From the IMG/VR virus record IMGVR_UViG_3300027365_000032, positions 1-36,903 of that record: a stretch of 36,903 bases of DNA. One strand, 5' to 3'. A model generated the notes under the pieces. That model searched no databases and was not told the origin of the DNA. It was given only the letters and a program-made list of their open reading frames with translations. The DNA comes from a virus. Of this stretch, positions 7,809 through 31,267 are shown in pieces (within the stretch, counting starts at the first letter, position 1; every line of letters starts with the position of its first letter). A program made the translations under genes and the position numbers.

Positions 7809-7870
7809 TGATCGACGTACACCGCGAGGACTAAAGTCACGCCGGGACAATACAGGAAGGAAAAAGACCT

Positions 7871-16902: not shown

Positions 16903-17513
16903 GCTTCCTCCAACTGCTCGTACTTGTTCTCCCAGTACGCCAGCATCTCGTCCAGCTGCTCTCGCCTATACTCGACTGGCGGGTCAATCTCCCCCTCCTT
17001 CAGCCAGATGAACCCGGCCTTCACCCGCTTGAGCTGTGGGTTGGTGATGAACGCCACCATGGCGTACAGCAGGAGCTGGTCCTGATCGTTCTTTTTCTTG
17101 CCGGTCTTCCAGTCGTACACCTCGGCGTAGTCTCCCAGCAGGAGAGTCACGTCGATCTTGGTGCGGAACCACACTGGGTTGGGTGCCGTCTTCTTGGTGA
17201 ACCAGCTGACCGACTTCAGGTCCTTGGTCAGTGCCACCTGCTGCTCGGCAATCAGCTTGCCACCCAGCTTGTCGGCCCGGCGCTGCACGGCGTCGAGCAG
17301 TGGCTTGTACTGCAGCATGTTGGAGGGCATCGGGCGACCCAGTTTGATCGCATCCTCCAGTGCCTTGTGGACCTCGTCGCCCCACTTGGCTGCCGCGTTC
17401 TGGACGAACGGCACTTCCTTGGTGACGTGCTTGGCTTGGTACTGCCGGGGGCAGGTCTCAAAGGTGTTCATGGCCGAATAGGACCACGAGATTACTTTCG
17501 GTTGTTCAGTCAC
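16803..17513 (-). CDS. Cas4/RecB-like PD-(D/E)XK nuclease with Fe-S-type cysteines, 236 aa
   Basis: GTG start with GGAGGG upstream. Conserved points of the RecB/Cas4 nuclease family are visible: S-Y-S-x-x-x-T-F-x-x-C-P at 11-22, H49, K119-I-D121, D134-W-K136 and Q146-L-L-L-Y150. Four cysteines (21, 218, 222, 227) match the 4Fe-4S arrangement in Cas4 and AddB-like exonucleases. It probably resects DNA ends during phage replication or recombination. It overlaps the small upstream gene by 8 bases and the 151-aa gene by 100. No cas1 or cas2 and no CRISPR array are present, so a CRISPR role is not supported. Confidence 0.85.
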   Translation of the reverse strand: MTEQPKVISWSYSAMNTFETCPRQYQAKHVTKEVPFVQNAAAKWGDEVHKALEDAIKLGRPMPSNMLQYKPLLDAVQRRADKLGGKLIAEQQVALTKDLKSVSWFTKKTAPNPVWFRTKIDVTLLLGDYAEVYDWKTGKKKNDQDQLLLYAMVAFITNPQLKRVKAGFIWLKEGEIDPPVEYRREQLDEMLAYWENKYEQLEEAWELDDFPPKPSGLCKRWCEVESCPHNGNYNGK

Positions 17514-17710: not shown

Positions 17711-19711
17711 CTATTTCGCACTCCCATATCGCTGGGCAATATCCCCCTCTGCCGCAACCGGAAGTTGAGGCCACCAGTCAGGCGGGGTTGCCATAGTTTT
17801 TATCGCGTGATCCAAGCAGTCCTGTGCTTGCTCACTCTTTACTACTGTAACCGCCTCGTCGTGTACTGTCAAAACTACGCCTTGGGTTGGGCGACTATAC
17901 CCACCCCAGACGCGTTCGATCTCAAGGCACTGGTCACACACGATGATCCCGGCCAACGCTTGGCACAGGTTCTCAGTCACGGCACCGCCGTACAGTTTCT
18001 TGGTGACACGCTTGCGCTTGTCGTCGTACACCCACTGCATACCGTCCCAGTCTTCGTCGTAGACTTCGCGCAGGTTGGGGTACACCAGCTTGCGCCCCCG
18101 GGGCAGGTAGATACAGTTCTTGCCGGTAACGCACAGGCCCCACTGGTCAATGGCCATCTCCCGGCCGCTGGCCATGGCCCGGATGGCTTTCTCGCAACGC
18201 TTCCACAGCTTGGGCAGCATCGGGAACCGGGTGCGGTAGAAGTCCACGGTCCCCCGGGCGTTCTCCTCACTCAGCTCCAGACCGCCCATGACCCGGGCGG
18301 CGTTCTGGAACGACGACCAGCCAGACTGGTACTGCAACTGGAGCATGGCCACCTTGCCGTGGAACCGCTCACCCGGGTGGTCCTTCTTGTTGACCGGGTA
18401 ACCGTACAGGTCACTGGCGAACCACGCATACAGGTCCTCGCCGTTGTGCAGTTTCTCCACCGTGTCCATCTGCCCGGCCAGTGTGTGCGCCACCCGCAGC
18501 TCGATGTTGGAGGAGTCCACCACAACCAGCTGGTGCCCATGCGGCGCAGCCACGCCGTCACGCAGGCCGAAGCAGTGCAGATCCTTGACGTTCCACTCCC
18601 CGCCCTCGCGGTCGGACACGACGCCGGACTCCGGGTCGAACTCGTCGAAGGTGCGCAGGCCGTTGGGCGTCACGATCAGCGTGCCCGGCAGGGTCTTGTC
18701 GGTAACCGCCCGGCCCCGGCCCATATTCTGCAGGTTGATCTTGCCGCCGCCGGCAGCCCGACAGGTCTGCGTCGCTCCCCAGATCAGCGGCGCCGGCAGC
18801 TTCCCGCGTCGTGCGATACCACGGAACCGGTCCACCCGGGTCTGTTCGATGGAGGTCTTGGTCTTCAGGCGAGCCTCGGCCAGCAGGCGGACGTACTCCT
18901 TACCGTGGTCCAGCAGCGCCGTCATACCCTTGTCGGTTTTGGCAAAGGCGAAGGCGGTCTTACCTGTCTTCTTGCTGATCTTGGTGGGCGGCTCCACGCC
19001 ACACCCACGCAACAGTTCCGCGAACTTCTTGTCGCTGCGTAGGTCCTTCACGTCCAGCCCCAGTCTGTCGAGCAGGGCCTGCCGCTCGTTGGCCAGCTGC
19101 TCGGCGAACAGGTCGTAGGCGTGGCCGTCCAGCTCCAGCCGTGGCTGAGCGAACATCTTGGTGAACCAGTGGATCGCCTGCAGGTCCTTCGTCGGAACCT
19201 TGTTTAACAGGATGTTAAAGATCGCCGTACACAGCTCGGAGTCGTGGTTACAGTAGTCGGTGTAGCTGGCCCAGTCCTCCTCGCTCATGTCGCTGGCCCG
19301 CTTGCCCTTCATGTCGTGGACCGCCGTGCCCTTGGCGGGCAGGCCGAAGCGTTTGGCCAGCGCCTCCAGCGAGTAATTGCCTTGGTCCGGTAGGGCCTGC
19401 CTCGCCATGGACAGGGTGCAGCCCCAGCGCCGGGGTGTGATCCCCAGCTTCTCGGTCAGCACCAGCGAGTCGAAGCCGATGTTGTTGTGGGCAATGCACC
19501 ATACTTTGTCCCACGGGATCTTGCGCAGCTGAGCGGCGATCTCCTCGTGGGTGCCAGAGAAGAACTTGGCCCGCTTGCCGTGCGGCTGCACTGAGATACC
19601 AATGATCTCGAACCGCTCGTCACGGATGTACTCCTCCGGGGTCATCTTTCGCAGGCTGTAGTCATTGTCGTAGTAAGTTTCCGCATCTATTGTTACCGGG
19701 GCCAGCCTCAT
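17711..19711 (-). CDS. Family A DNA polymerase with 3'-5' exonuclease, 666 aa
   Basis: The exonuclease domain has D9-x-E11, the N-x-x-x-F-D81 motif and Y153-x3-D157. Polymerase motif A is VVDSSNIELR (Asp399), motif C is VHDEA (His617, Asp618), and the O-helix is R449-x3-K453-x3-L457-x3-Y461. There is no 5'-3' exonuclease domain. Leu457 is at the place of E. coli Phe762, a site where viral enzymes carry Phe, Tyr or Leu. It is the main replicative polymerase of the phage. The ATG overlaps the stop of the zinc-ribbon gene (ATGA), and it sits in the middle of the replication operon. Confidence 0.93.
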   Translation of the reverse strand: MRLAPVTIDAETYYDNDYSLRKMTPEEYIRDERFEIIGISVQPHGKRAKFFSGTHEEIAAQLRKIPWDKVWCIAHNNIGFDSLVLTEKLGITPRRWGCTLSMARQALPDQGNYSLEALAKRFGLPAKGTAVHDMKGKRASDMSEEDWASYTDYCNHDSELCTAIFNILLNKVPTKDLQAIHWFTKMFAQPRLELDGHAYDLFAEQLANERQALLDRLGLDVKDLRSDKKFAELLRGCGVEPPTKISKKTGKTAFAFAKTDKGMTALLDHGKEYVRLLAEARLKTKTSIEQTRVDRFRGIARRGKLPAPLIWGATQTCRAAGGGKINLQNMGRGRAVTDKTLPGTLIVTPNGLRTFDEFDPESGVVSDREGGEWNVKDLHCFGLRDGVAAPHGHQLVVVDSSNIELRVAHTLAGQMDTVEKLHNGEDLYAWFASDLYGYPVNKKDHPGERFHGKVAMLQLQYQSGWSSFQNAARVMGGLELSEENARGTVDFYRTRFPMLPKLWKRCEKAIRAMASGREMAIDQWGLCVTGKNCIYLPRGRKLVYPNLREVYDEDWDGMQWVYDDKRKRVTKKLYGGAVTENLCQALAGIIVCDQCLEIERVWGGYSRPTQGVVLTVHDEAVTVVKSEQAQDCLDHAIKTMATPPDWWPQLPVAAEGDIAQRYGSAK

Positions 19712-21102: not shown

Positions 21103-21586
21103 GGTCCTCCTCCAAAACTTTGATAGCTGCAGCCAAATACACGATACCGCCCAGCAGCTCCGCCTTGGCCTGCTCGTACGGCAGGCGCTGGGCCTCCTCC
21201 ATCTTCTTGCCGACCTGACCGTAAGCATAGCCCCGGCCGTACAGTCGCTGCAGTTCACAGATCGGCTGGGCCTCGAACGCCTGCCCGTCGAACTTCACAT
21301 GCCGGTCCTTGCCCTTGCCTCCGGCGGACTGCTGGAATGCCTCGTCCAGAATACGGGCGAGGTGTTCGTACCCTGGGGTGGGACCCTGAAGGTAGAAGTT
21401 GTCGTTGCCCACCGGGATCGGGCGGCCGGGGCGTATGACAGGTTCGTCCTGCAACAGATCTTCGAGAATCCCTCTCGCTTGGTCTATGTCGTGCCGAATA
21501 ACTGCCAGCTTCTTGCCCGGGTAGTCTTGGGCGACTGTACTTACACACCGTACAAAGGTCGCCGCCTGCCTAAGTTTGTCAGTCAT
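21062..21586 (-). CDS. Unknown protein, 174 aa
   Basis: The ATG overlaps the last 8 bases of the exonuclease gene. The protein is mixed, with a central PIPVGNDNFYLQGPTPGYEH segment and a C-terminal helix (QAKAELLGGIVYLAAAIKVL). It looks like a soluble cytoplasmic protein without a known motif. Co-translation with the DEDDh exonuclease suggests a nucleic acid metabolism role. I do not recognise the family. Confidence 0.55.
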   Translation of the reverse strand: MTDKLRQAATFVRCVSTVAQDYPGKKLAVIRHDIDQARGILEDLLQDEPVIRPGRPIPVGNDNFYLQGPTPGYEHLARILDEAFQQSAGGKGKDRHVKFDGQAFEAQPICELQRLYGRGYAYGQVGKKMEEAQRLPYEQAKAELLGGIVYLAAAIKVLEEDHDGASQQPSVGSD

Positions 21587-22220
21587 GCGTCCCGCCCTCG
21601 CTGTCGTCGATCAAGTCCATCTGCTGGGTGTCGGTCGCGCCGAATACGCGCTTGCCCTGTGTGATATTGATGAGCCACTTGGCCTGATGCGTGGCGTCTG
21701 CCAGTGCGTCGTGACGCTCACCAACGAACTCTGGCTGCAGGTTCTTGTCTGGGTCCAGCTCGCCCTTCATGGTGCGGAAGCAGCGGTCGTTCCAGAACTT
21801 CCACGGCTCCAGCAGGCCGAGGCGCTGGTACATCTCACGCAGCAATACGTTATCGAACGCGGCGCCGTTGCCCCACACCTTGATCTCGTCGTTCACCCCA
21901 CCTTCGTCGTCGGTCAGGATGTCGGCGAACGTCTGCAGTGCCTGATGTACAGCCATGGGGTTCTCGAACGCCGCCTTGGTCGCCGCTTCGCTCTGCTCCA
22001 TCCAGAACTTCAGTGTGCCACCCGTGGCGTTGAAGCCCATGGACAGGACCTGCTCGATGTCGAGGTTCATCTTGTACCCGGGCCCCAGCGTACCGGCCTT
22101 GCGGTCGAACAACTGTACTCCGACGGAGATGATGCCGTCCCCCGGCCGGGTGCCGACGGTCTCCAGATCCAGCATGGCGTCTGGCCACTCGATGGTTGCG
22201 ATGTCTTCTTCCATATCCAT
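21579..22220 (-). CDS. DEDDh 3'-5' exonuclease (exoribonuclease Rv2179c-like), 213 aa
   Basis: Active-site points are all present: D18-L-E20 (AMLDLETVG), Asp123 (GAAFDN), His170 and Asp175 (ERHDALADATHQA), the order expected for RNase T-like enzymes. The spacing and the phrase FNATGGTLKFWMEQS fit the phage group related to Mycobacterium Rv2179c. It would trim RNA or DNA 3' ends during infection. The ATG at 22220 follows AGAGGT. It is the first gene of the replication block after the Cro-like gene. Confidence 0.85.
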   Translation of the reverse strand: MDMEEDIATIEWPDAMLDLETVGTRPGDGIISVGVQLFDRKAGTLGPGYKMNLDIEQVLSMGFNATGGTLKFWMEQSEAATKAAFENPMAVHQALQTFADILTDDEGGVNDEIKVWGNGAAFDNVLLREMYQRLGLLEPWKFWNDRCFRTMKGELDPDKNLQPEFVGERHDALADATHQAKWLINITQGKRVFGATDTQQMDLIDDSEGGTHD

Positions 22221-22233: not shown

Positions 22234-22434
22234 TTATCGTTGCTTGGTTACTTCCACGACGTACCCGTAGTAGGTGGCGATCTTCATAAAGGTCGACAGC
22301 CTTGGGTACTTCACCTTGTTGTCCCGCCAGTTGCGCAGGGTGGAGGTGGATACGCCCGCCTCCTCCGCCACATCCGACAGGCACTCGCCTTGGATCTCTT
22401 TCTTCACCGCCGCGAACGCTATGGTAATGTCCAT
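22234..22434 (-). CDS. Cro/CI-like HTH regulator, 66 aa
   Basis: Residues 15-50 (GECLSDVAEEAGVSTSTLRN, then WRDNKVKYPRLSTFMKIA) are a lambda-repressor type HTH, the whole protein being hardly longer. GGAGGAAGG precedes the ATG. A copy of the dispersed palindrome (22449-22464) ends 14 bases upstream of the start, so it sits in this gene's own control region, as expected for an autoregulated repressor. It is the best local candidate to bind that palindrome, but no binding data exist. It is the leftmost gene of the palindrome-bearing region. Confidence 0.75.
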   Translation of the reverse strand: MDITIAFAAVKKEIQGECLSDVAEEAGVSTSTLRNWRDNKVKYPRLSTFMKIATYYGYVVEVTKQR

Positions 22435-22448: not shown

Positions 22449-22464
22449 GGTCCTAATTAGGACC
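22449..22464. promoter_or_regulatory. Dispersed palindrome copy 1 (before Cro-like gene)
   Basis: GGTCCTAATTAGGACC, perfect. It holds the TAA stop (22457-22459) of the upstream membrane-protein gene and lies 15 bases before the Cro-like ATG. A short form of the shared leader (CACTGGGAGG) follows. Confidence 0.85.
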
Positions 22465-22873
22465 GTTCCGGCAGATCGAACTCCTCGATTGCCTTCAGTT
22501 TTGTCTTCTCCTCGTCATCCTGCGCCGCCAGCCCGGCGTCATAACCTTGGCTGAAGGCCCGGAGTACGCCGACCTCGGCGTGCAGGCGCCGGTCTTGTTG
22601 CTGTTCAGCCCACGACATGAGGCGGTCAATGGCAGCTCGCCCTTCCAAGGTTTCAACCTCGTCGTTGTCGTCTCTGCCGAAAGCGATGCGTACCGCCGTG
22701 AGTTTGCCCAGCCCGAACCACCCGCGCTTCATAATCTCGCCGACGATTACCAGCAGCACCGGGCCAGCGAGGCCGGCGATGTACGGGGCCTGCTCGGGTG
22801 CCTGCTTGGCCACCAGCATCACGACCGTAGCGTATGCCATACACGCCAGTGCGAATTTCATTGCCATGCTCAT
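22457..22873 (-). CDS. Two-segment membrane protein, 138 aa
   Basis: The ATG at 22873 follows AGGAGGAAGG; a longer frame from 22954 overlaps the upstream gene and lacks a ribosome site. Two hydrophobic stretches (residues 5-19 and 28-46, AGLAGPVLLVIVGEIMKRG) form membrane helices, and the C-terminal 85 residues are charged, cytoplasmic and probably helical. It could be a membrane-acting takeover protein or a holin-like protein, but the place in the early region makes the latter less likely. Its stop is inside palindrome copy 1. Confidence 0.65.
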   Translation of the reverse strand: MSMAMKFALACMAYATVVMLVAKQAPEQAPYIAGLAGPVLLVIVGEIMKRGWFGLGKLTAVRIAFGRDDNDEVETLEGRAAIDRLMSWAEQQQDRRLHAEVGVLRAFSQGYDAGLAAQDDEEKTKLKAIEEFDLPERS

Positions 22874-22883
22874 ACCTTCCTCC

Positions 22884-23384
22884 TTAATTGTCGAACCAGA
22901 ACACGAGCCGGACATCGTCGTGATCCAACCCCCGCTTGTCAGCGAACTCGACAAGCTGGTCCAACGAGAACTTCAGCTGGTCACTGAAATACTTGTAGTC
23001 CGGGTGGTGCATGGCCGCGGCCATACTTCCAGAAACCAACTCACGTAGAGACAGCCAGTGGGGGCTGTGCCCGTCGGCCCCCCACTGCGCTCTTTCAGCA
23101 GCGACGAAGTCAGACGCGTCGTCAGGCACGCCCCGCAGGTGCGGCCCGCCGTCGAGTAGCTGGGTGCATGACGGGCCTCTCCCCCGTACGTTGGCAAGGA
23201 ACCCGAACAGAGCGTAGTTCCTACTGTCCACTGGTGACCGAGCCTCAAAAAACTCTCGACCGCTAAAGAAACCTTCCGACCCTTGTGGCATGTCGTGTCG
23301 GTGGTCGCTCACAAACACGCCCGGGGCGACCGACCACCGGCCGTCGTCTCGATACTCAACAAAAGAATGGATGTCACATCCCAT
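22884..23384 (-). CDS. MGCDIH-type conserved hypothetical protein, 166 aa
   Basis: The ATG at 23384 follows AGGAGGAAATGGC. The N-terminus MGCDIHSFVEYRDDGRW is the mark of a widespread phage and bacterial family of unknown function. A segment of the form SGREFFEARSPVDSRNYALF agrees with it. The protein is acidic and has no membrane segment. It lies 10 bases upstream of the membrane-protein gene. No enzyme activity can be assigned from sequence. Confidence 0.65.
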   Translation of the reverse strand: MGCDIHSFVEYRDDGRWSVAPGVFVSDHRHDMPQGSEGFFSGREFFEARSPVDSRNYALFGFLANVRGRGPSCTQLLDGGPHLRGVPDDASDFVAAERAQWGADGHSPHWLSLRELVSGSMAAAMHHPDYKYFSDQLKFSLDQLVEFADKRGLDHDDVRLVFWFDN

Positions 23385-23402
23385 GCCATTTCCTCCTAGT
23401 GG

Positions 23403-23424
23403 GGCGGACCCGTAACAATCCGCC
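23403..23424 (-). other. Small hairpin upstream of the MGCDIH gene
   Basis: GGCGGA and TCCGCC (6 bp) enclose a 10-base loop on both strands, in the 47-base gap between two genes. It may be an mRNA structure near the ribosome site of the MGCDIH gene. Weak evidence; no T-tract. Confidence 0.3.
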
Positions 23425-23431
23425 GTGTTTA

Positions 23432-23968
23432 TCATTGCAGCCGGGCCACCGCTGTCGCCCACTTCACCAGTGTGTCCTTGTCCGTGAACTCCATCTGCGC
23501 CAGTGGTTTGACGTACGCCTTGTCAGCGTCGGGCACCTCGTAGGTGGACACGATACCGTTGTCATCCACCCTGATACGCAGGCTGTCGTCCGTCACCTCG
23601 GCGGACACGGACTCGCTGTGATACCCGTTGGACTCGCCCAGCCAGCGCAGCCACAGCCCGCCCTTCGAGGTCTCCAGTTTGTAGAAGGTCCACGTACCAG
23701 ATTCACTGACCTCTGGACAGTCGTCGGCGTCGGACTCGCTAATCTCGAACGACTGGACGATGGCCCCGGACAACGTCTCCGGGTCACCCTCGAAATCGTG
23801 CAGAGATACACCCTCGCAGCAGTCTTGGTGGTGTATTAACTCAATGTACCCGCCGTCGATGAAGCGAATACGGACTCGCTCGGAGTGCTTCTCCACCCCC
23901 TCGACCGCCTCGATAATCGCACCCTTGGCCATAGCCACCGGGTCTTCGTTAATCAGATACTGGCTCAT
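23432..23968 (-). CDS. DUF7448-like protein with a W-motif C-terminus, 178 aa
   Basis: The segment RFIDGGYIELIHHQDCCEGV, then SLHDF, and later GTWTFYKLETSKGGLWLRWL with GESNGYHSE, follows a phage family (DUF7448 in my memory) with the conserved HxQDCC and TWTFYK..T..G....RW.GESNGY pattern. The C-terminus (TDKDTLVKWATAVARLQ) fits the signature shared by eight small proteins further right, so this is a bigger member or a source of that tail. The function of the domain is unknown. ATG start at 23968, coupled as ATGA to the preceding gene. Confidence 0.7.
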   Translation of the reverse strand: MSQYLINEDPVAMAKGAIIEAVEGVEKHSERVRIRFIDGGYIELIHHQDCCEGVSLHDFEGDPETLSGAIVQSFEISESDADDCPEVSESGTWTFYKLETSKGGLWLRWLGESNGYHSESVSAEVTDDSLRIRVDDNGIVSTYEVPDADKAYVKPLAQMEFTDKDTLVKWATAVARLQ

Positions 23969-24249
23969 ACGTTTCGCTCCACGTTGAATACGCCCAGCTG
24001 GATACCGTTCAGGTACAAGGGCACGTCACCTTCCAGCTTGTACCGGTACACAGCCTGCGCTACGTCGCCGATGGTCACGTCTGGTGTGGTGGCGTGCAGC
24101 TCGTCGCCGTCGCGGATCACCTTATGGGACAGCTCCACCGCCACGTCCTTGGTGGGGCTGTATCCAAACCAGCGCATGAAGTTGGTCAGTCGCGTCTCCA
24201 CCCGCTTGAGGCGGGCGGAGTCTGAGTTGTTGGTCTTACCTTCCGGCAT
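23965..24249 (-). CDS. Small unknown protein, 94 aa
   Basis: Starts MPEGKTNNSDSARLKRVE, followed by a helical stretch and a beta-rich end (PLYLNGIQLGVFNVERNV). The stop overlaps the next start (ATGA). It is 1 base from the end of the upstream gene. No family recognised; the layout suggests it is co-translated with the DUF7448-like protein. Confidence 0.55.
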   Translation of the reverse strand: MPEGKTNNSDSARLKRVETRLTNFMRWFGYSPTKDVAVELSHKVIRDGDELHATTPDVTIGDVAQAVYRYKLEGDVPLYLNGIQLGVFNVERNV

Positions 24250-24250
24250 A

Positions 24251-24601
24251 CTATCCTCCGCTCACAATGAGCAATCGCTTGTTGGAAATCAGTCGGCTGA
24301 GGTGTCTCCACGTCACCTCGCCTTGGTTAACGCCGTCCATGAACAGCACCACCGTGTGGTACTGCGGGTTCTCGGACAGGAGTTTCTTCACTGCCGCCGG
24401 TGAAGGCGTCACCAGCCGGGCACCGTTGGGCGGGGCCATGTCGTGTGCCAGCTTGTGGAACGGGCGAGGCAGGACAACCACCACCCCCTTGCCAGCCAGC
24501 GCAAGCAGCGCCGACCGGACGTTGGTGCCGGGGATCGCCATGCAGCTGTCCCATTTGGCGCAGCCTTCGAGCGCATCACGAACGTGTTGTGGATAGCTCA
24601 T
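24251..24601 (-). CDS. Unknown protein, 116 aa
   Basis: The ATG at 24601 (MSYPQHVRDALEGC) is coupled to the stop of the DUF3150-like gene (TGAGCATG). A GTG at 24607 is possible. The alternating beta/alpha pattern (AGKGVVVVLPRP, HTVVLFMDGVNQ, KRLLIVSGG) suggests a Rossmann-like fold without a clear P-loop. The nearest functional context is the MoxR/VWA/DUF3150 trio upstream, so it may be a fourth part of that system. I cannot name it. Confidence 0.55.
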   Translation of the reverse strand: MSYPQHVRDALEGCAKWDSCMAIPGTNVRSALLALAGKGVVVVLPRPFHKLAHDMAPPNGARLVTPSPAAVKKLLSENPQYHTVVLFMDGVNQGEVTWRHLSRLISNKRLLIVSGG

Positions 24602-24603
24602 GC

Positions 24604-25458
24604 TCACCCCCCGAAGACCGAGGCCACGTCGCTGGCCACCGTCTTGGCTGTCTCGTAGGCGTGCTCCCGGGCACCAGTGTTGGTGCGCAGGGCCTGCGGG
24701 TCGTACTGGATCAGGTCTTTCTCCAGCCGGTCAGTGATCGCAGCCAGCCGCTCGTCACCGGTGACGTTCAGGGCGGGGAGCAGGGCCACCAGATCCCGGG
24801 CGCCCTCCACCATGGAGTCACGGAACACACCGTTGGGCTTGGCCAACCGCTCGACGTAACGCTCGACCACCTGCTGCACCCGGCGGTACGCATCCTCGAC
24901 AGCCCGCTGCATGGTGGCCTCGGACTGCTGCTCGATCTCCTTGCGCAGCTCGTCCAGCTCGTCGTCGGGGATATTGCAGCGGAAGTCAGCACCCCGGGGC
25001 AGCGGCGTGAAGCGCAGGTTGAATGCGTACTTCTCGGACAGCTTGTCCGGCGTGGGGTAGTCGTCCTCGTCGAACAGCGAGCCGAGGAAACGCTTGGCCT
25101 CCTCCCGGTGGTACGGGTACTCGGACAGTAGGGCCTCGACCTCGGACACAAACCGCTGGCGGTAGTCCTGCATCTGCCGGGTGTACTCAAAGTACAGGGT
25201 GGACGGCAGGACCCGGGGGCCATCGTCGGACCACGGCAGAGTGACCCGGTAGTGGTAGGTGCGGGCCTCGTTCACCAACTTCTTGATGCCGTCGATGATG
25301 GCCGGGTCCAGCAGGGATTTGTAGTACGCACCAACACGCTGGTCTACGTGGTTGGAGTCGGCGACTTTCTTGGAGACTCGCTTGTCCTGCTTGCGGGCAG
25401 TCCACTGACTGATACGCAGGTCAACGAGCATGACGTTGGAATGGATGTTGTCGTTCAT
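24604..25458 (-). CDS. DUF3150-like protein of the MoxR/VWA system, 284 aa
   Basis: The ATG at 25458 follows GGGAG and the shared leader. A helical protein whose start (VDLRISQWTARKQDKRVSKK) and centre (TLPWSDDGPRVLPSTLYFEY, then SEYPYHREEAKRFLGSLFDE, DDYP) follow the DUF3150 pattern: 'l.is.wtg.k.dk.....v', 'tlpWdd.g.RiLp...y..y', 'LF.e.dYP'. In many phages this gene accompanies a MoxR-type ATPase and a VWA protein, as it does here. Role in the complex unknown. Palindrome copy 2 lies upstream. Confidence 0.7.
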   Translation of the reverse strand: MNDNIHSNVMLVDLRISQWTARKQDKRVSKKVADSNHVDQRVGAYYKSLLDPAIIDGIKKLVNEARTYHYRVTLPWSDDGPRVLPSTLYFEYTRQMQDYRQRFVSEVEALLSEYPYHREEAKRFLGSLFDEDDYPTPDKLSEKYAFNLRFTPLPRGADFRCNIPDDELDELRKEIEQQSEATMQRAVEDAYRRVQQVVERYVERLAKPNGVFRDSMVEGARDLVALLPALNVTGDERLAAITDRLEKDLIQYDPQALRTNTGAREHAYETAKTVASDVASVFGG

Positions 25459-25481
25459 GGTGTGCTCCCAGTGTTTCAAGT

Positions 25482-25497
25482 GGTCCTAATCAGGACG
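25482..25497. promoter_or_regulatory. Dispersed palindrome copy 2 (one-base variant)
   Basis: Plus strand GGTCCTAATCAGGACG, a copy with a changed centre base. It carries the TAG stop (25486-25488) of the gene upstream. The shared leader (ACACTGGGAGCACACC) follows before the DUF3150-like start. Confidence 0.75.
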
Positions 25498-25806
25498 TTT
25501 AAAGTTCATCATACCAGCAAAGACTGCTGCTTCCAGTGTGTCCAGCCGGGCTACTGGTTCTCCGAGGTCAAACAAGGACCCGGGAGGATGCAAGCTGTAC
25601 GGCCGTTCGTCCGCCGACGCGTCATGAGCAACGAAGAACCACGGTGAGACGGACATTGTTACCTCGCCGGTTCTCTCGTAGGCACCGAGTATGTACCTGC
25701 CACCGTCTGCTGAGTTCGGGATCACGCGACGCAGGAACACACTGCGTTCCCCTGCTGCAAAGTCCCGGTTCAGTTTCTTCACGGCCTCCTGTGCTTCACG
25801 GCTCAT
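25486..25806 (-). CDS. Small unknown protein, 106 aa
   Basis: The ATG at 25806 follows GGAGGTGACC; the GTG at 25812 is the alternative. The sequence is mixed, with an aromatic core (TMSVSPWFFVAHDASADE). The C-terminal ARLDTLEAAVFAGMMNF recalls the paralogous W-motif tail but without its Trp. It overlaps the gene before it by 11 bases. It ends inside palindrome copy 2. Function unknown. Confidence 0.55.
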   Translation of the reverse strand: MSREAQEAVKKLNRDFAAGERSVFLRRVIPNSADGGRYILGAYERTGEVTMSVSPWFFVAHDASADERPYSLHPPGSLFDLGEPVARLDTLEAAVFAGMMNFKRPD

Positions 25807-26131
25807 GGTCACCTCCGAAGGCGCCCATGGCCAGCGCCGCGGCGACGGACTGGATGATGTCGTCGGGACTGTTGCCGGTGAACACCCGCTCCTGCCGCTT
25901 CGAGTTGTCGACCACCGCGCCCGGGTAATAAGTTGCCCGAGCTTTCATCACCTTTGTGCGGGTGTTCATTACCCAGTTACTGACGCGGACGATACGCTGG
26001 AATCCGACCTCAATTTTAACCAGCGTCGCTGTCGTATCAGAGCTGGGGCCGTACACGCTAACGCCACGGGGCATCTTCTTTGGTGTGGCCCGGCGTATCG
26101 CTCGGGTCACCGCTCCATTAATAGACACCAT
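25796..26131 (-). CDS. Small basic unknown protein, 111 aa
   Basis: GGGAGGAG precedes the ATG. The protein is strongly basic (AVTRAIRRATPKKMPRG) with a beta-rich middle and a helical tail (SPDDIIQSVAAALAMGAFGG). It may bind nucleic acid. It overlaps the next gene by 11 bases and belongs to the same block of small genes after the VWA gene. No family recognised. Confidence 0.5.
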   Translation of the reverse strand: MVSINGAVTRAIRRATPKKMPRGVSVYGPSSDTTATLVKIEVGFQRIVRVSNWVMNTRTKVMKARATYYPGAVVDNSKRQERVFTGNSPDDIIQSVAAALAMGAFGGDHEP

Positions 26132-26148
26132 GTCTCCTCCCGGCTCCG

Positions 26149-26436
26149 CTATACGGAGCTCATCCGAATTGCTGTGAGTGCAGAGCGCAGGGCGGCGGAC
26201 GATGTCGACGCCCGGAACACGGTCTCGTTGTGGTCTCCCTGACAGGCCCGCAGGCGAAGCACGAACGTGCCGCCCTTACGGTCGTGCGACCAGCCCAAGT
26301 GCCACTTCTTGTTAACCTCCCCAACGCCGTAATGTTGGACGATGCGCCGCACCGCCATAGGAGAGATCCGCCAAGGTATGTCGGCGCCTTCAACCTTGAC
26401 GGAACCCGGGCCGCTACCGATAAGGAACATGTCCAC
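26149..26436 (-). CDS. Small unknown protein, 95 aa
   Basis: GTG at 26436 after GGAGGTG, right behind the stop of the VWA gene; ATG at 26430 is the alternative. Starts MDMFLIGSGPGSVKVEGADI and contains PWRISPMAVRRIVQHYGVG, a helical motif. Ends in a Ser/Ala-rich helix. Coupled to the VWA gene, so it may be expressed with it. No known domain. Confidence 0.5.
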   Translation of the reverse strand: MDMFLIGSGPGSVKVEGADIPWRISPMAVRRIVQHYGVGEVNKKWHLGWSHDRKGGTFVLRLRACQGDHNETVFRASTSSAALRSALTAIRMSSV

Positions 26437-26437
26437 G

Positions 26438-27583
26438 TCACACCTCCACGAAGATCGTCTCTCCGAACGGCGCCTTGATCGACTGCTCGGTCACCGCCCA
26501 CATCACCGGGTAGTCCCGGTCGTTACCGAACGGGGTGTACCCGTCGGTGAACACGATGGCGGCCTTGGTGTCCGGCATGTTGTCGTCGATCCAGTCCAGC
26601 GCCACGGTCATGTCCGTACCACCGGCGCCGTAGCGGGCGATGGAGTCAGTGACCTCGTCCACCGTCGGGTCGTGGAACGTGTCAACGTGCTGCACTTGGG
26701 CGTCACAGTAGATCAGGCACAGCCCTGTCGGGTTGGTGCTGTCCACCGCCTCGACCACCTCGCTGGCGAACCGGCGCATCTCGTCGGTGGATACGGAGCC
26801 CGAGGTATCGAACACCACGGACAGCATACCCATACCGTCGTTGCCGTACTTGCCCGGGAGGTAGATGTCTTGGGCAATGAACCGGCGGTTGGGCCGGGCG
26901 AACGAGTAGTCGGTCTCTGTGACTTCAGTCAGGAAGCGACGCAGGGCTTCTTCCCATGCCACCTTCGGCTCCAGCAGGTCACCGAGGAACGACTTGGCCC
27001 ACGCCGGCAGCTTGCCCATGGCCTTGGCCACCTGTGCCGCAGACACTACGTTCTCCAGTGCTGCCTGCTCGGCTGCCTGTGACTGGTCCGGGGCAGGGAG
27101 TACGTCCCCGTCCAACGGGTTGCCTCCGTCCCCACCTTGGCCCTGACCTTGGCCACCGCCACCCGGCGGCTTCTCAGGCAGGAGGTTGTAGACCTCCTCG
27201 GCAGCCATGTCCTTGGTGAACCGGCTCGGATCGTGCTGGATGCCGTCGATCAGGGCGTCACCCTCGTCGGCCGCTTGGTCGTTGATGACGTAGTCCGTCG
27301 CCTCATTCCAGCGCCGGCCGTCCCGGGCACCGACACGAAACGGGTGCAGCTGGGCGACGTGGCGCAGCTCGTGCTTGATGACGAACACGCCCTGCTCAAC
27401 CGACAGCTCGCTGAAGTTCGTCGGGTTGAAGTACAGGTGGCTGCCGTCGGTGGCAGCCAGCCACAGGTCCCGCCCATCCGGCAGCTTCTCACACTCGACT
27501 GGCTCAAGGTTCAGCATGAGTGTGGCGTAGAACGGTTCGTCCAGCAGCAAGCGGACTTTGGATTTCTCAAACAGTGAAGCCAT
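26438..27583 (-). CDS. VWA-domain protein with metallopeptidase-like N-terminus (DUF2201-type), 381 aa
   Basis: The N-terminal domain has H71-E-L-R-H75, a zinc-binding HExxH helix, with a downstream NEATDYVIN (93-101) as in the DUF2201 putative metallopeptidase family. A Gly/Gln/Pro linker (about 139-165) leads to a von Willebrand A domain with MIDAS residues D259-T-S-G-S (VVFDTSGSVS), Thr323 and Asp347 (IVFTDGY). Such proteins act with MoxR-type ATPases, encoded immediately upstream here. It may be a chaperone-like or protease system acting on virion or host proteins. ATG after GGAGATAGATC; palindrome and hairpin lie upstream. Confidence 0.85.
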   Translation of the reverse strand: MASLFEKSKVRLLLDEPFYATLMLNLEPVECEKLPDGRDLWLAATDGSHLYFNPTNFSELSVEQGVFVIKHELRHVAQLHPFRVGARDGRRWNEATDYVINDQAADEGDALIDGIQHDPSRFTKDMAAEEVYNLLPEKPPGGGGQGQGQGGDGGNPLDGDVLPAPDQSQAAEQAALENVVSAAQVAKAMGKLPAWAKSFLGDLLEPKVAWEEALRRFLTEVTETDYSFARPNRRFIAQDIYLPGKYGNDGMGMLSVVFDTSGSVSTDEMRRFASEVVEAVDSTNPTGLCLIYCDAQVQHVDTFHDPTVDEVTDSIARYGAGGTDMTVALDWIDDNMPDTKAAIVFTDGYTPFGNDRDYPVMWAVTEQSIKAPFGETIFVEV

Positions 27584-27615
27584 GATCTATCTCCAGTTGG
27601 CCAGTGGTACCAGTT

Positions 27616-27631
27616 GGGGGCCGGAGCCCCC
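27616..27631 (-). other. GC hairpin between palindrome copy 3 and the VWA gene
   Basis: Minus strand GGGGGC-TCCG-GCCCCC, a 6-bp stem with a 4-base loop, directly after the palindrome in the leader of the VWA gene. No T-tract. It may tune expression of VWA relative to MoxR. Confidence 0.5.
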
Positions 27632-27647
27632 GGTCCTAATTAGGACA
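27632..27647. promoter_or_regulatory. Dispersed palindrome copy 3
   Basis: Plus strand GGTCCTAATTAGGACA, with one end base asymmetric. It holds the TAA stop (27640-27642) of the MoxR gene. The GC hairpin and a leader with CCACTGGCCAACTGGAGA follow before the VWA start. Confidence 0.85.
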
Positions 27648-28749
27648 ACAGTTCGTGGTGCTCGGTGGCGAACTTGTTGAACGCCGCCGTGCTCATGGTC
27701 TCCGGGGAGCGACGGGTGCTGTCCCGTACCGTCATCATCATAAACTCCTTGGGCAGACGCTCGGAGTAACGGACGATGGTGGAGAAGTTGTCCTGGGTGG
27801 CACGGGCCGCCAGTGCGGAGCACACAGCGTAGCGGGTGGCGCCCTTCTCGGGGATCGGTGCGTTGTCTGGGTCCATGAGGATGCCGTCAATGTTGGGCAT
27901 CTCCTTGTAGACCTTGCGGAAACTGTTGAACTCGATGGCCGGGCCGACACCGATGGTACCTGCCAGCATGGTGGCCAGCGCATCCCCCGGGGCAACCTTG
28001 ACCAGATCCGAAGCGGCCTCCCACGAACGCTCGGTGGCGAAGGCGTGGCCCTTCTGTTTCTTGGACACGTACTCCTCGAACGTGTTGAGCAGGTCCGGGC
28101 GGAAGCGAATGAAGCCCACCACTGACGGGTCCACGTCGTGAGTCAGCGCCCAGTTGCACCAGCTATCCACATCGGAGCGAACGTAGACGTGGATCAGGCG
28201 GTTGGCCAGCGGGGTTGGCATCTTGTGTACCACGCCGCCATCGGACAACAGGTTACCGGTCAGTACGACAGACCAGCCCTCTTTCATTACCTTGTTGCCG
28301 ATACGACGGTCGTGGGTGAGCTGATACGCCGCTGCCTGTACGGCCGGGGGAGCAGACGGTGCCTCCTCCAGCAACAGGATGCCGTGCTCGGGGATGTCGT
28401 CCCGGTCTGTGCTCGGGAACCAGTCCGGCACCAGACGCCCCTGTACCCCACGCTCTTTGTCGGCGACAGGCAGGCCACCTACGTCCACCGGGTCACACTG
28501 CGACAGGCGGACATCGAACAGGCCGAAGTATTCGGACACGTCTTTCATGTGGCCTACGTCGCTGAGCATGGCCACGTTCGGCGCCCCGAGACCGGAGCCA
28601 ATATCCGAAGCGGCTTGCTGCGCAGCGGCAGACTTACCCAGACCGGGCGAGCCGTGAATCATAAGCGGGCGACCAGCGGCAACAGAGGTTGCGATGATGG
28701 CCGGCAGTTGGGAAGCAGTAACTTGGTTCAGTTCGGTTACGTCAGTCAT
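27640..28749 (-). CDS. MoxR/CbbQ-type AAA+ ATPase, 369 aa
   Basis: Walker A is GSPGLGKS (33-40), Walker B is ILLLEEA (124-130), with a sensor LTGN at 163-166 and PTPLANRLIH (178-187) near the arginine finger region, all typical of the AAA_5/MoxR group. These ATPases remodel proteins together with a VWA partner. The gene order ATPase - VWA - small genes - DUF3150 matches a recurring phage set. Promoter 28827-28856 and palindrome copy 4 lie upstream; the ATG follows AGGAG. Substrate unknown. Confidence 0.88.
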   Translation of the reverse strand: MTDVTELNQVTASQLPAIIATSVAAGRPLMIHGSPGLGKSAAAQQAASDIGSGLGAPNVAMLSDVGHMKDVSEYFGLFDVRLSQCDPVDVGGLPVADKERGVQGRLVPDWFPSTDRDDIPEHGILLLEEAPSAPPAVQAAAYQLTHDRRIGNKVMKEGWSVVLTGNLLSDGGVVHKMPTPLANRLIHVYVRSDVDSWCNWALTHDVDPSVVGFIRFRPDLLNTFEEYVSKKQKGHAFATERSWEAASDLVKVAPGDALATMLAGTIGVGPAIEFNSFRKVYKEMPNIDGILMDPDNAPIPEKGATRYAVCSALAARATQDNFSTIVRYSERLPKEFMMMTVRDSTRRSPETMSTAAFNKFATEHHELLS

Positions 28750-28774
28750 GGTGTTCTCCTAGTCTTTCGAGTGT

Positions 28775-28790
28775 GGTCCTGATTAGGACC
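28775..28790. promoter_or_regulatory. Dispersed palindrome copy 4 (one-base variant)
   Basis: Plus strand GGTCCTGATTAGGACC; the centre base differs from the consensus. It lies at about +30 to +45 of the promoter at 28827-28856. Leader CACACTCGAAAGACTAGGAG follows before the MoxR start. Confidence 0.8.
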
Positions 28791-28826
28791 GGTGGTTGTC
28801 AGCCGAGGTCATCCCCGACTGTTTAT

Positions 28827-28856
28827 ATTGTCTCACAATGTACTACTCTGTGTCAA
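28827..28856 (-). promoter_or_regulatory. Sigma70-like promoter for the MoxR/VWA cassette
   Basis: Minus strand TTGACA (28851-28856), 18-base spacer, GACAAT (28827-28832) with an extended TGA just before it. The TGA stop of the gene upstream (28853-28855) lies inside the -35 box. The sequence is closely similar to the promoter at 32176-32205, including the spacer. Confidence 0.75.
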
Positions 28857-29185
28857 GTGTGTAGTCTCGATACGGCCTGAGCCCACTTGATAACTTTGTC
28901 CTTGTCCGGGTTGTCGCCGAAGTGGCAGCTCGCTATCGGAGTGGGGTCCCAGTTTTCCCCCGTTCCGTGGGCGTGGAAAAGCCCGTCTGAAGTTACCACC
29001 AGTTGGACGCGGTTACGAAACAACACCTCAACAGTACCTAAGTTACTCACCAGCACGGGGTCCCGCCCGTCTGGCCGGGGTGCGTATGTGGACTTACTTG
29101 GCTGGTTGCCGAGAATGCACCACATCGGACCGGACCCGTATTTCGGGTGGTCCCTATCCCACTGGCGAATCGCGTCGATGTTCAT
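28853..29185 (-). CDS. W-motif family protein, 110 aa
   Basis: The ATG at 29185 (MNIDAIRQWDRDHPKYGSG) overlaps the upstream stop (ATGA); the longer frame to 29233 runs inside that gene. Beta-rich centre (GTVEVLFRNRVQLVVTSDGL). The C-terminus PDKDKVIKWAQAVSRLHT fits the family signature of W followed by V-x2-L-H. Small, acidic and neutral parts, no membrane segment. Family of unknown function; one of nine related genes in the region. Confidence 0.65.
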   Translation of the reverse strand: MNIDAIRQWDRDHPKYGSGPMWCILGNQPSKSTYAPRPDGRDPVLVSNLGTVEVLFRNRVQLVVTSDGLFHAHGTGENWDPTPIASCHFGDNPDKDKVIKWAQAVSRLHT

Positions 29186-29790
29186 GCCGCCCCCTCGTGC
29201 ATGGCCACGTACATGTCCCAGATCTGGATGCACTGGCGCATCCAGTCACCCCGCTTGGACGGGTACCACTCGGGCAGCTCCAGCCCCCGGCTCTCGAACA
29301 GCTGCTCGACAGCGGCGAGGCAAACCTGTGGCTCGTAGCCTGACCCGTCGAAGTCGTCGCCCACAAACCCACCGATGCAGTCGGCCGTGTGCCAGAACCC
29401 GTCCTGCTTGTACTCTGACTCCACCACCCACGCGCCCTCGTTCTGGAGGCGGTCGTAAGCCTCAGCCTTCTGGGCATTCAGGGTACGCTGGCCCCCGGGT
29501 ATGGTATCGGCGTGGTAGTCGTCGAAGGTGTCACCGAACAGGTCGTCCACGCTCATACAGTCGTCCGGCACCGATTCGAGGCGGACCAATCCATCCTCCT
29601 CGAAGTAGTCGAACAGAGACATCTGCTCCACATCACGCTGGGCGTTCTCCCACACCCACGGCAGCCGCTCTTTGGTGCACGTGAACTCACCCTTTAGGGC
29701 AGCGGCCATGTTCCGCTTCATCATCTCTCGGGTGTATGTATGGACAATCTGCGGGTGGATGGTGGATAGGATAGAGGTAATGACCATCAT
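29182..29790 (-). CDS. Unknown acidic protein, 202 aa
   Basis: Start at the first ATG of an ATGATG pair (29790 or 29787), after GGAGGTGC; the upstream part of the frame lies in the preceding gene. The protein is acidic (DYFEEDGLVRLESVPDDC, DDLFGDTFDDYHAD). It has a helical N-terminus (TYTREMMKRNMAAALKGEFT), and the C-terminus (IQIWDMYVAMHEG) recalls the W-motif tail loosely. Acidic proteins in phage early regions sometimes mimic DNA, but that is speculative here. Confidence 0.6.
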   Translation of the reverse strand: MMVITSILSTIHPQIVHTYTREMMKRNMAAALKGEFTCTKERLPWVWENAQRDVEQMSLFDYFEEDGLVRLESVPDDCMSVDDLFGDTFDDYHADTIPGGQRTLNAQKAEAYDRLQNEGAWVVESEYKQDGFWHTADCIGGFVGDDFDGSGYEPQVCLAAVEQLFESRGLELPEWYPSKRGDWMRQCIQIWDMYVAMHEGAA

Positions 29791-30035
29791 GCACCTCCCT
29801 TGAATACGTCTGGCTGGTCGAACACGGTGTCGGCATCGACCACGCCCTCGCCGGGCATGTCGAAGTCGGTGCCCTCGTCCAATGCCCCGGGCAGGGCGAC
29901 CACAAAGATCGCGTTGTCGTTCATGTCGGGGCGCTTGGAGCATTCATAGAAGGCGTCCATTGTGTCCTCGGCCTCGACGTGGTGGGCGAACAGCCGCCCG
30001 TCGTCTTCGTAGTAACCTATTACTGTGTGAATCAT
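29787..30035 (-). CDS. Small acidic unknown protein, 82 aa
   Basis: ATG after the leader (ACTGGAGACACGCT). The protein starts MIHTVIGYYEDDGRLFAHHV and is strongly acidic, with PGEGVVDADTVFDQPD near its end. The stop overlaps the next start (ATGA). No family recognised. Preceded by palindrome copy 5. Confidence 0.6.
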   Translation of the reverse strand: MIHTVIGYYEDDGRLFAHHVEAEDTMDAFYECSKRPDMNDNAIFVVALPGALDEGTDFDMPGEGVVDADTVFDQPDVFKGGA

Positions 30036-30069
30036 AGCGTGTCTCCAGTCTTTCCAGTGTGTCAGTAGT

Positions 30070-30085
30070 GGTCCTAATTAGGACC
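30070..30085. promoter_or_regulatory. Dispersed palindrome copy 5
   Basis: Perfect GGTCCTAATTAGGACC. It holds the TAA stop (30078-30080) of the gene upstream, and the full leader (ACACTGGAAAGACTGGAGA) follows to the ATG at 30035. Confidence 0.85.
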
Positions 30086-30446
30086 CGATCATTCGGGCGG
30101 CGACCCGCAGCCACGCCCGGGCCTGCTCCCATGTATCAGGCAGCGGGCAGCTGGTCGCGGGCGCCCAGCCAGAAGTTGTCTCTATCCCCCGTCGCGCCGC
30201 TCTGGTCAGTAGGTACAACGTCGCCCCGTCAGTGACAAACAGCCAGTTCAAGGAGTCGTCCACACCGAACACGATCTCATCCACCAGCGCGTTAGATATG
30301 TGAACGCTGCTTTCCTCTGCCTGTAGTATCTCGGCAACCGCTGACGTGAACCCCGTTTCAGTCCCTACCAAATCCTCCCGCCACACGGCGTCGTAGTCGC
30401 CGTCGCCGTCGCTCATTTGCTGCTCCCACTTCCGCCAGTCACTCAT
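30078..30446 (-). CDS. W-motif family protein, 122 aa
   Basis: ATG at 30446 after GGGAGGCGGTG. Starts MSDWRKWEQQ, a short W-x2-W N-terminal motif that recurs in related genes. The C-terminus CPLPDTWEQARAWLRVAARM is the clearest version of the family signature. The middle is beta rich. The stop is inside palindrome copy 5. Function unknown. Confidence 0.65.
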   Translation of the reverse strand: MSDWRKWEQQMSDGDGDYDAVWREDLVGTETGFTSAVAEILQAEESSVHISNALVDEIVFGVDDSLNWLFVTDGATLYLLTRAARRGIETTSGWAPATSCPLPDTWEQARAWLRVAARMIGS

Positions 30447-30708
30447 CACCGCCTCCCTGTTTCGCCTTCACCTCACGACTCAGGGTCGCGGCCCGGCCTG
30501 TCAGGTCGGTCAGGTCTCGCCGCAGTCGCAGGTGGTAGTTCATCTCCCGGGTCATGGCCTCCTGCTGCTCGTCCAGCACCGCCCCGGCGTCGGCCTTGAA
30601 CTGATTGAGCTTCTGGCCGGCGGCCTCCAGTCGCCCCGCTGCGTACAGTCGGTGGGCCTGATCCAGTATCTGTCCCAGTGATTTCAGTGTTGGCTTGCGC
30701 TTTGCCAT
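30439..30708 (-). CDS. Small basic helical protein, 89 aa
   Basis: ATG after GGGGGAATCT. Sequence opens MAKRKPTLKSLGQILDQAHR and remains helical (AAGRLEAAGQKLNQFKADAG, MTREMNYHLRLRRDLTDLTG), giving a likely coiled coil. It overlaps both neighbours. No family recognised; basic character suits nucleic acid contact or a protein complex. Confidence 0.55.
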   Translation of the reverse strand: MAKRKPTLKSLGQILDQAHRLYAAGRLEAAGQKLNQFKADAGAVLDEQQEAMTREMNYHLRLRRDLTDLTGRAATLSREVKAKQGGGDE

Positions 30709-30923
30709 AGATTCCCCCTGTTCTTGGCTCGGTCGTGGGCCTTACGGGCCAGCGACAGTCGTTTCTTTGTGGCTCGCCACCGGGATTCTTCCAGCAGCTG
30801 GGCCTCGTAGTCACCCAGTCGTCGGGCCAAATTCAAATGCTTGCGTGCCCACCGGTGGTCCCGGCGTGCCTGCGTCAGCCTTTGGACGCAGGGTGGTTCA
30901 GTGCATTGACCATGTTGCACCAT
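30684..30923 (-). CDS. Small very basic helical protein, 79 aa
   Basis: ATG at 30923 after GAGGAG; the longer frame from 31016 runs inside the preceding gene. The protein is rich in Arg, Lys and His (RLTQARRDHRWARKHLNLAR, ATKKRLSLARKAHDRAKNRG), so it probably binds nucleic acid. It overlaps the upstream gene by 49 bases and the downstream by 25. Evidence is moderate because of these overlaps. Confidence 0.5.
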   Translation of the reverse strand: MVQHGQCTEPPCVQRLTQARRDHRWARKHLNLARRLGDYEAQLLEESRWRATKKRLSLARKAHDRAKNRGNLWQSASQH

Positions 30924-31267
30924 CGGATGATCTCCTCTGCTGACATGACTTGTCCATCCACCTCGGGTCGTATGGACGCGTTGCGGTAGCGGATCAGGCA
31001 GCCCTCCCACGGGCACAGGATCAGGGTTGGGGCGAGGTCGCTGGGTACAGTCTTCGGGCGGAAAGCGAGTTTCAATCTCGCCCGCAGGCCATTACGCCCG
31101 GCCTTGTTGCCCACCGGGCGAGGCGGGTACCACAGACGCCTCACTGGCTCCCCCTCGACGCGTGCTTCAGGAAGGGTCAGGTTCCACACGGTGTCGAACA
31201 GGTGCTCCTCGGCAGCCAGCCGCTGGTGGTCCAGCGGCTCTTGGTCCAGCGGATCAGAACCGGACAT
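30875..31267 (-). CDS. W-motif family protein, 130 aa
   Basis: ATG at 31267 after AGGAGCTGAG, overlapping the upstream gene by 14 bases. The C-terminus MSAEEIIRWCNMVNALNHPA matches the family signature. The N-terminal half is Asp/Glu/Leu rich (DPLDQEPLDHQRLAAEEHLF). It is one of nine related proteins. Function unknown. Confidence 0.6.
   Translation of the reverse strand: MSGSDPLDQEPLDHQRLAAEEHLFDTVWNLTLPEARVEGEPVRRLWYPPRPVGNKAGRNGLRARLKLAFRPKTVPSDLAPTLILCPWEGCLIRYRNASIRPEVDGQVMSAEEIIRWCNMVNALNHPASKG

Follow-up and report, generated by a model that had tools for sequence, protein, structure and literature searches.

In cells, AAA+ ATPases that work together with a VWA protein, such as the pairs CobS/CobT, NorQ/NorD and RavA/ViaA, handle metals or cofactors or act as remodelling machines. 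Viruses encode such pairs as well. The group 2.2 jumbo phages possess an ATPase and a VWA protein with an N-terminal peptidase, for which a chaperone/peptidase function has been proposed (PMC7824862, Iyer et al. 2021), while gp24 and gp25 are core genes of the N4-like phages and are transcribed as middle genes in N4 itself (PMC4193335). In the virus ATV, the MoxR-type protein p618 binds the VWA protein p892 strongly and also interacts with virion proteins, and p892 stimulates the p618 ATPase (PMC4124505). The pair is widespread in phages, its two members having matches in 787 and 609 phage records, respectively. Literature searches found neither a tested function for the pair in bacterial phages nor essentiality data for N4. 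The ATPase/zincin-VWA pair is thus already known; what seems to be new is the third component described here.

The window, i.e., the whole stretch of viral DNA analysed (36,903 nts, IMG/VR record IMGVR_UViG_3300027365_000032), contains no detected tRNA genes, and no DNA-level similarity to named phages was found for the segment in question. All genes of this segment lie on the minus strand, where an AAA+ ATPase (27640–28749, 369 aa) is followed by a zincin-VWA protein (26438–27583, 381 aa), three small ORFs of 95, 111 and 108 aa (26149–26436, 25796–26131 and 25486–25812), a DUF3150-like protein of 284 aa (24604–25458) consisting mostly of long helices, and ORFs of 118 aa (24251–24607) and 94 aa (23965–24249). 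The DUF3150-like reading frame spans 24604–25479, its start being more likely at the ATG at 25458. The order, strand and coordinates from the ATPase to the 118-aa ORF agree with a first-pass annotation of this DNA, which also had copies of a palindrome heading successive pieces of the segment. This is borne out: the 16-bp palindrome GGTCCTAATTAGGACC is present in 15 copies with up to three mismatches, compared to a mean of 0.07 copies in shuffled sequence (none of 100 shuffles reached 15), and the copies at 28775–28790, 27632–27647 and 25482–25497 precede the starts of the ATPase, VWA and DUF3150-like genes by 25, 48 and 23 nts, respectively. A 66-aa HTH protein encoded at 22234–22434 is a candidate binder of this palindrome. 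Outside the window's lineage, a repeated palindrome near the start of a trio gene occurred at 6 of 95 loci versus 18 of 1900 random positions, and palindromes thus do not generally accompany the trio.

The ATPase matches PHROG 1297 (“ATPase”, E=3e-93). Its best solved relative in a profile search against the PDB is midasin (E=4e-28), with RavA ranking behind; NorQ is likewise among the profile matches. In 11 homologues, residues G36, G38, K39, E129, N166, R184 and R241 are invariant, and the Walker A and B motifs, sensor 1 and arginine residues of an AAA+ protein are all present; we take G33–K39 to be Walker A, E129 to lie in Walker B and N166 to be sensor 1, with R184 and R241 presumably providing the arginines. 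Since the scores stay below the Pfam cut-offs of the MoxR families (AAA_5, 13.9 bits against 22; bpMoxR, 12 bits against 27), the protein can only be named MoxR/midasin-like. This corrects the initial label “MoxR”, midasin being nearer than RavA.

The VWA protein clearly matches PF13203 (E=4.9e-41, 141.6 bits, gathering cut-off 23.2) and PF09967 (DUF2201; E=8.7e-21, 74.8 bits, gathering cut-off 26.4). Its N-terminal zincin-type domain carries the motif HExxHxxxxHxxR...WNxAxDYxIN, and the HELRH noted in the first pass is indeed there as H71-E72-L-R-H75. Among 77 divergent homologues (23–47 % identity to the window protein) the HExxH is kept in 76, with H71 and E72 each conserved in 76 and H75 and D97 in all 77; N93 and A95 are also kept throughout, as are the five MIDAS residues D259, S261, S263, T323 and D347. 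Such strong constraint fits a working zinc site, in which D97 may be the third metal ligand. The structural model (pLDDT 89) places residues 248–381 on the VWF A2 domain (3zqk; Z 14.1, rmsd 2.3 over 132 residues). The matches listed in the structure search are all to VWA domains and none to the zincin domain, for which the hints come from sequence searches (M48 peptidase, E=9.8e-4; MJ1213, E=0.011). The protein also attracts the label “HNH endonuclease” through PHROG 1314, which looks wrong, as the Pfam matches above cut-off are zincin and VWA only.

The third protein scores 15.1 bits against PF11348, under the cut-off of 24.9, and is called DUF3150-like for this reason; when five of its relatives were scanned with the same profile, only one (L036) passed, with 42.5 bits. 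Although the sequence cut-off is missed, the name is supported at the level of the fold: the model (pLDDT 94.6) matches the BFVD entry A0A6J7WV52, labelled DUF3150, with E=7.6e-20 and TM scores of 0.88/0.85. Foldseek found no solved counterpart in the PDB at E≤0.001, and a literature search on DUF3150 returned no paper. VIA-align matches of the model are helical bundles over residues 157–284 with Z up to 10.6, a range common for helical models, and barely cover the N-terminal part. D133 is conserved in 41 of 45 DUF3150 sequences from trio loci and phages. Its candidacy as a ligand of the VWA MIDAS is not supported, since it is also found in 17 of 17 bacterial relatives that lack this VWA protein. 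In bacteria, DUF3150 relatives adjoin AAA+ ATPases of the PF00004 type at 24 of 32 loci, again without this VWA protein. DUF3150 thus stands beside a different AAA+ ATPase there and looks like a general AAA+ partner.

The remaining ORFs are less informative. None of the three small ORFs belongs to a known family in Pfam, PHROGs or PADLOC. Three small genes are also present between DUF3150 and VWA in G003 and in the Synechococcus phage MinM2, and BLAST and phmmer detected no similarity between these and the ones of the window. The 118-aa ORF had been described as Rossmann-like, which finds no support, as it has no family match in Pfam (E≤1), PHROGs (E≤0.1), PADLOC or NCBIfam (both E≤0.01). The 94-aa ORF resembles proteins that follow the DUF3150-like gene in L068 and G003 (26 % and 28 % identity, respectively).

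That such trios recur in phages, as the first-pass annotation stated, is supported by 80 viral loci collected with the VWA protein as seed, and the set is frequent among phages from the environment. All three genes are found on one strand in 41 of these loci, in the order ATPase-DUF3150-VWA in 37, and in 34 of these 37 the median intergenic gaps are 16 and 4.5 nts. Similarly, records longer than 50 kb carrying a relative of the window's primase contain the ATPase and VWA genes in 8 of 8 cases and DUF3150 in 7. The composition of the trio is nevertheless broader than had been claimed, because at 28 further loci of the 80 a gene of the Nmad5 family occupies the DUF3150 slot. The two occupants were considered as a single family and rejected as detectable homologues (profile-profile probability 1.3 %). 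In N4 and four other named phages that have the pair, neither DUF3150 nor Nmad5 was detectable within about 6 kb. The pair thus does not require the third part. The trio genes are co-inherited with the phage. Distance correlations over 20 loci, which reach 0.76–0.925 within the trio, were dropped as evidence of a complex because they do not clearly exceed the values obtained for DNA polymerase as a control (0.80–0.875).

We favour, with a probability of roughly 55 %, the view that the three proteins constitute an early remodelling machine of the AAA+ type, one of its subunits being a metalloprotease and the third being exchangeable. In this ATP-driven machine, made in the early or middle phase of infection, the ATPase would form a ring on which the VWA subunit docks via its MIDAS, and the zincin-type domain, probably active to judge from its conserved site, would act on the protein being handled. 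The helical DUF3150-like protein would be the third subunit and would most likely serve as an adaptor, either delivering the target or coupling it to the ring; in other phages the Nmad5-family protein takes this position and might play the equivalent part. Given its location among replication genes, the module would most likely act on proteins of replication, DNA modification or host takeover/defence, and less likely on those of the virion. A more specific and decidedly tentative version is that the MoxR/midasin-like ring and the VWA-zincin form a fixed engine whose target is set by DUF3150 or Nmad5, that DUF3150 is a general AAA+ adaptor of a fold without solved counterpart and serves the PF00004 ATPases of bacterial elements and mycobacteriophages as well, and that in phages of the window's lineage the parts are linked to a palindrome private to each phage, which varies between phages and yet lies at an equivalent place ahead of the start codons.

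Other functions can be envisaged. By analogy with ATV p618/p892, a function as virion-assembly chaperone and as peptidase in the maturation of structural proteins, which has been put forward for the jumbo-phage pair (PMC7824862), would agree with the interaction of p618 with both p892 and virion proteins (PMC4124505) and with a second structural module located near the gp24/25 homologues in RPP1 (PMC4193335). However, in the window the trio is part of the replication/early block, where it precedes the exonuclease, polymerase, nuclease, helicase and primase genes and shares their strand, while the block matching the plus-strand genes of Rollin is on the other strand; Rollin has much of both blocks but none of the three genes. 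This early location and the absence in Rollin argue against a dedicated role in virion assembly, as does the middle-gene status of N4 gp24/25 (PMC4193335), and we regard this explanation as unlikely. The same early position and the lack of the trio in Rollin, one relative, would suit a role in counter-defence, with a defence protein of the host being disabled or degraded, a possibility which overlaps with the preferred machine and differs in naming the target. In Dhillonvirus, mutations escaping the Tmn defence fall in a gene of the Nmad5 family, which neighbours many trios (PMC11846954), but this link is one of escape mutation and not of anti-defence activity, and no Nmad5 gene is detectable in the window. 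Moreover, none of the seven window proteins matches a PADLOC defence HMM at E≤0.01, and the ATPase/VWA pair, present in nearly all long records of the lineage and a core component of N4-like phages, has a housekeeping-like distribution. Counter-defence as such appears about as improbable as virion assembly.

Less likely still is a chaperone of the CobS/CobT, NorQ/NorD or RavA/ViaA kind that handles metals or cofactors or acts in remodelling, its HExxH binding metal without peptide cleavage. It is in line with RavA and NorQ appearing among the ATPase matches and with a weak match to PHROG 249, “porphyrin biosynthesis” (E=0.035). On the other hand, we know of no HExxH zincin in these cellular pairs, and E72, the catalytic Glu, would be needless for pure metal binding.

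For the favoured remodelling machine, the swappable third component and the association of DUF3150 with AAA+ ATPases in two settings offer a route to the function of the pair. Should the machine turn out to act as a protease, phages would possess a counterpart of the AAA+ proteases whose metalloprotease is built into the VWA adaptor. Midasin (Rea1/MDN1), which provides the nearest AAA+ modules in the PDB, is a single giant eukaryotic polypeptide whose AAA ring works with its own MIDAS domain and acts on pre-60S ribosomes; to our knowledge it has no HExxH peptidase. ATV p618/p892 resembles the window in combining AAA+ and VWA proteins (PMC4124505) but comes from an archaeal virus, is a virion component and, according to PMC7824862, lacks the peptidase domain. 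The jumbo-phage pair has the AAA+ gene adjoining a vWA gene with an N-terminal metallopeptidase domain, whereas the accessible text of that paper mentions no DUF3150/Nmad5 component and proposes a role in virion assembly. N4 gp24/gp25 and their equivalents in other N4-like phages (Schitoviridae) are homologous to the ATPase and zincin-VWA genes, adjacent and in the same order, but belong to another lineage, and neither DUF3150 nor Nmad5 was found in the 13-kb stretches examined. In the cluster O mycobacteriophages Corndog and Dylan, the early genes contain an array of 17-bp palindromes which, according to the paper describing them, are not tied to start sites (PMC4351075). In Dylan, the gene next to that of the AAA ATPase gp95 codes for gp94, which probably corresponds to the DUF3150-fold match S5YZA3, but the ATPase of these phages is of the PF00004 type and VWA was not found in the 31 kb examined. 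Finally, MinM2 has the ATPase, DUF3150, VWA and small genes in one run together with a palindrome array of its own, and departs from the window in its ATPase-DUF3150-VWA order, a single small gene following the ATPase and three others preceding VWA.

The record (36,903 bases, about 60 % G+C) falls into two strand blocks, with plus-strand genes in bases 1-8641 and minus-strand genes from 8666 to the end. Within the latter, the segment that encodes the AAA+ ATPase (27640-28749), the zincin-VWA protein (26438-27583) and the DUF3150-like protein (24604-25458) lies upstream, in the order of transcription, of the genes for a primase/helicase-like protein (8666-11599), an SNF2-type helicase (13532-16039), a PD-(D/E)XK nuclease (16803-17513), a family-A DNA polymerase (17711-19711) and an exonuclease (21579-22220), all on the minus strand. 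ORF calls bore out the coordinates that the first-pass annotation had assigned within 24251-28749. Immediately downstream of the module, a DUF7448 protein is encoded at 23432-23968 (E=3.6e-15).

The zincin-VWA protein is above both Pfam cut-offs for DUF2201, and its residues 248-381 match VWF A2 (Z 14.1, rmsd 2.3, 132 residues). In an alignment of 77 sequences (the window protein and 76 from viral contigs or bacterial genomes, redundancy removed at 90 %), the five MIDAS residues D259/S261/S263/T323/D347 are invariant, as are H75, N93, A95 and D97; H71 and E72 of the HExxH motif are kept in 76 of the 77, and so are H80 and R83. The sole sequence without H71/E72 (locus L035) is also divergent nearby, and that of locus L125 lacks H80. 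In the AlphaFold model (pLDDT 89.1), H71-H75 lie on helix 62-77 and D97 on the one that follows, 89-106; the N-terminal domain would thus fit a zincin with the Asp as third ligand. PHROG 1314 labels the product of 26438-27583 an “HNH endonuclease”; no finding here backs this label, which looks wrong and is borne by many phage records.

The ATPase matches PHROG 1297 at 3e-93 and scores under the Pfam cut-offs for AAA_5 and bpMoxR. When a profile of 11 homologues was compared with the PDB, midasin came first (4e-28), followed by Clp/Hsp100 ATPases, RavA (4e-7) and NorQ (2e-5). The Walker B motif reads EE, not DE. Judged by sequence, the protein can be called MoxR/midasin-like.

The DUF3150-like protein matches PF11348 at 15.1 bits, under the cut-off; a bacterial relative from the same search (L036) passes at 42.5 bits, and four other relatives scanned gave no DUF3150 match at E<=0.1. 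Its model, built from 62 sequences, is confident (pLDDT 94.6, pTM 0.89) and consists of a core of two helices of about 42 residues each plus a small strand part. It matches no PDB chain at E<=0.001 and eight viral models at that threshold, one of them labelled DUF3150 (TM 0.88). A full-text search of open PubMed Central papers found none on DUF3150. The ATPase/VWA pair is already published, so that, within open PubMed Central, the part of the system that seems new is the DUF3150 component.

Among named phages, tblastn found the VWA protein in 609 records, the ATPase in 787 and the DUF3150-like protein in only 3, each a cyanophage record 65,014 bases long. Scanning viral contigs with the VWA alignment gave at least 599 stretches, with at least 567 confirmed. 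The best 80 loci carry all three genes in 41 cases, ATPase and VWA only in 31, VWA and DUF3150 in 3 and VWA alone in 5; contig ends truncate some of the loci in these last two groups. The order in the 41 trio loci is ATPase-DUF3150-VWA in 37, DUF3150-ATPase-VWA in 3 and ATPase-VWA-DUF3150, as in the window, only in L068, the closest relative among the matches listed. Evolutionary correlation within the trio is no higher than with the polymerase and therefore cannot be used as support. The full trio also occurs in bacterial genome contigs of Cupriavidus sp. YR651 (L034) and a Thiohalocapsa MAG (L035).

Where DUF3150 is absent from these 80 loci, its slot is usually filled: 28 of the 31 have a protein of 216-260 aa between ATPase and VWA, and all 28 form one BLAST cluster. 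Scanned for Nmad5 (PF18757), five of these proteins gave two matches above the cut-off, two below and one no match. Profile comparison showed no homology with DUF3150. Members of the slot profile are also found on the downstream side of VWA: 29 of the 41 trio loci and 12 of the 28 slot loci have one there. The window has no detectable Nmad5-like protein.

The window's lineage includes Pseudomonas phage Rollin, which shares genes of both strand blocks with it (primase 47.8 % identical over 97 %). Rollin has one Nmad5-like gene and no ATPase, VWA or DUF3150 match at E<=1 in its whole record, although this record is marked as a partial genome and contains a stretch of N. Seventeen records, picked from 80 viral-contig primase loci as long contigs or close relatives, were searched for the trio. 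Those above 50 kb carry ATPase and VWA in 8/8 and DUF3150 in 7/8, the shorter ones ATPase or VWA in 0/9 and DUF3150 in 1/9. In G003, by primase the closest long record of these 17, the arrangement is that of the window: ATPase and VWA are followed by three small ORFs, then DUF3150, then a homologue of the 94-aa ORF (23965-24249, minus strand). G003 has an additional small ORF between ATPase and VWA.

DUF3150 is also found away from the VWA gene. Of the 35 loci returned by a bacterial genome scan, 32 lack this ATPase and VWA, and the other three (L033, L034, L035) have the complete trio. An ATPase of another AAA+ type is present in 24 of the 32, a partly circular count since the search profile was built from eight of the same loci's ATPases; it lies upstream on the same strand in 16 of the 20 loci having at least 2.5 kb upstream. 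Nine bacterial ATPases (L038, L039, L040, L041, L042, L051, L053, L057 and L067) were independently assigned to PF00004 by Pfam. Neighbours examined at L041 and L042 include RadC, UvrD and JAB-domain genes. In mycobacteriophage Dylan, gp94 (275 aa) comes after the PF00004 ATPase gp95; by length and phage name it is probably S5YZA3, a weak fold match to the DUF3150-like model (E=1.8e-3, TM 0.36), with marginal sequence support. The chromosome CP043547.1 (Planctomycetales bacterium 10988) contains four DUF3150 loci (L055, L059, L060, L064), which suggests a multi-copy mobile element.

The trio's genes, its conserved catalytic and MIDAS residues, its co-occurrence and its location in the early/replication block are established. 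As to mechanism, the ATPase subunits would form a ring on which the VWA protein would dock through its MIDAS; its peptidase would be functional, DUF3150 or Nmad5 would serve as adaptor, and the target may be linked to replication, to DNA modification or to takeover of the host. A role in virion assembly, proposed in PMC7824862, is a possible alternative.

The minus-strand block also holds all 15 copies of a palindrome (22449-36706), 11 of which are followed within 75 nt by a Shine-Dalgarno-like stretch and a start codon. Several copies, e.g., those at 36691, 34910, 32123, 30070, 28775 and 25482, are separated from the start codon by a conserved leader near CACTGGAAAGACTGGGAGACACACC. Relatives have a different palindrome in the same place, often 15–50 nt before start codons of the early block. 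Of 10 lineage members examined, 8 (the window, L068, G003, G007, G011, G014, G016 and G017) have a repeated palindrome close to the start of one or more trio genes; G014 has only two perfect copies. In G006 an array is present, but the copy that precedes the ATPase is imperfect, and G005 shows no repeated palindrome near trio gene starts in the part covered; G006, G017 and L068 were likewise searched in part. In Rollin no palindrome is repeated. When the window, L068 and the five records covered whole were each resampled five times by nearest neighbour, no such palindrome appeared more than once. The copies have the look of operators bound by a dimeric, phage-specific regulator; alternatively, they may form a hairpin in the leader of the mRNA. 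For the operator reading, a candidate regulator is the 66-aa helix-turn-helix protein at 22234-22434 (PHROG transcriptional regulators, E=1.5e-7), whose start is preceded at 14 nt by a perfect palindrome and whose gene is possibly self-regulated. The lineage's palindromes may form a phage-specific operator or immunity system. A comparable array, 34 palindromes of 17 bp, is described for cluster O mycobacteriophages in PMC4351075.
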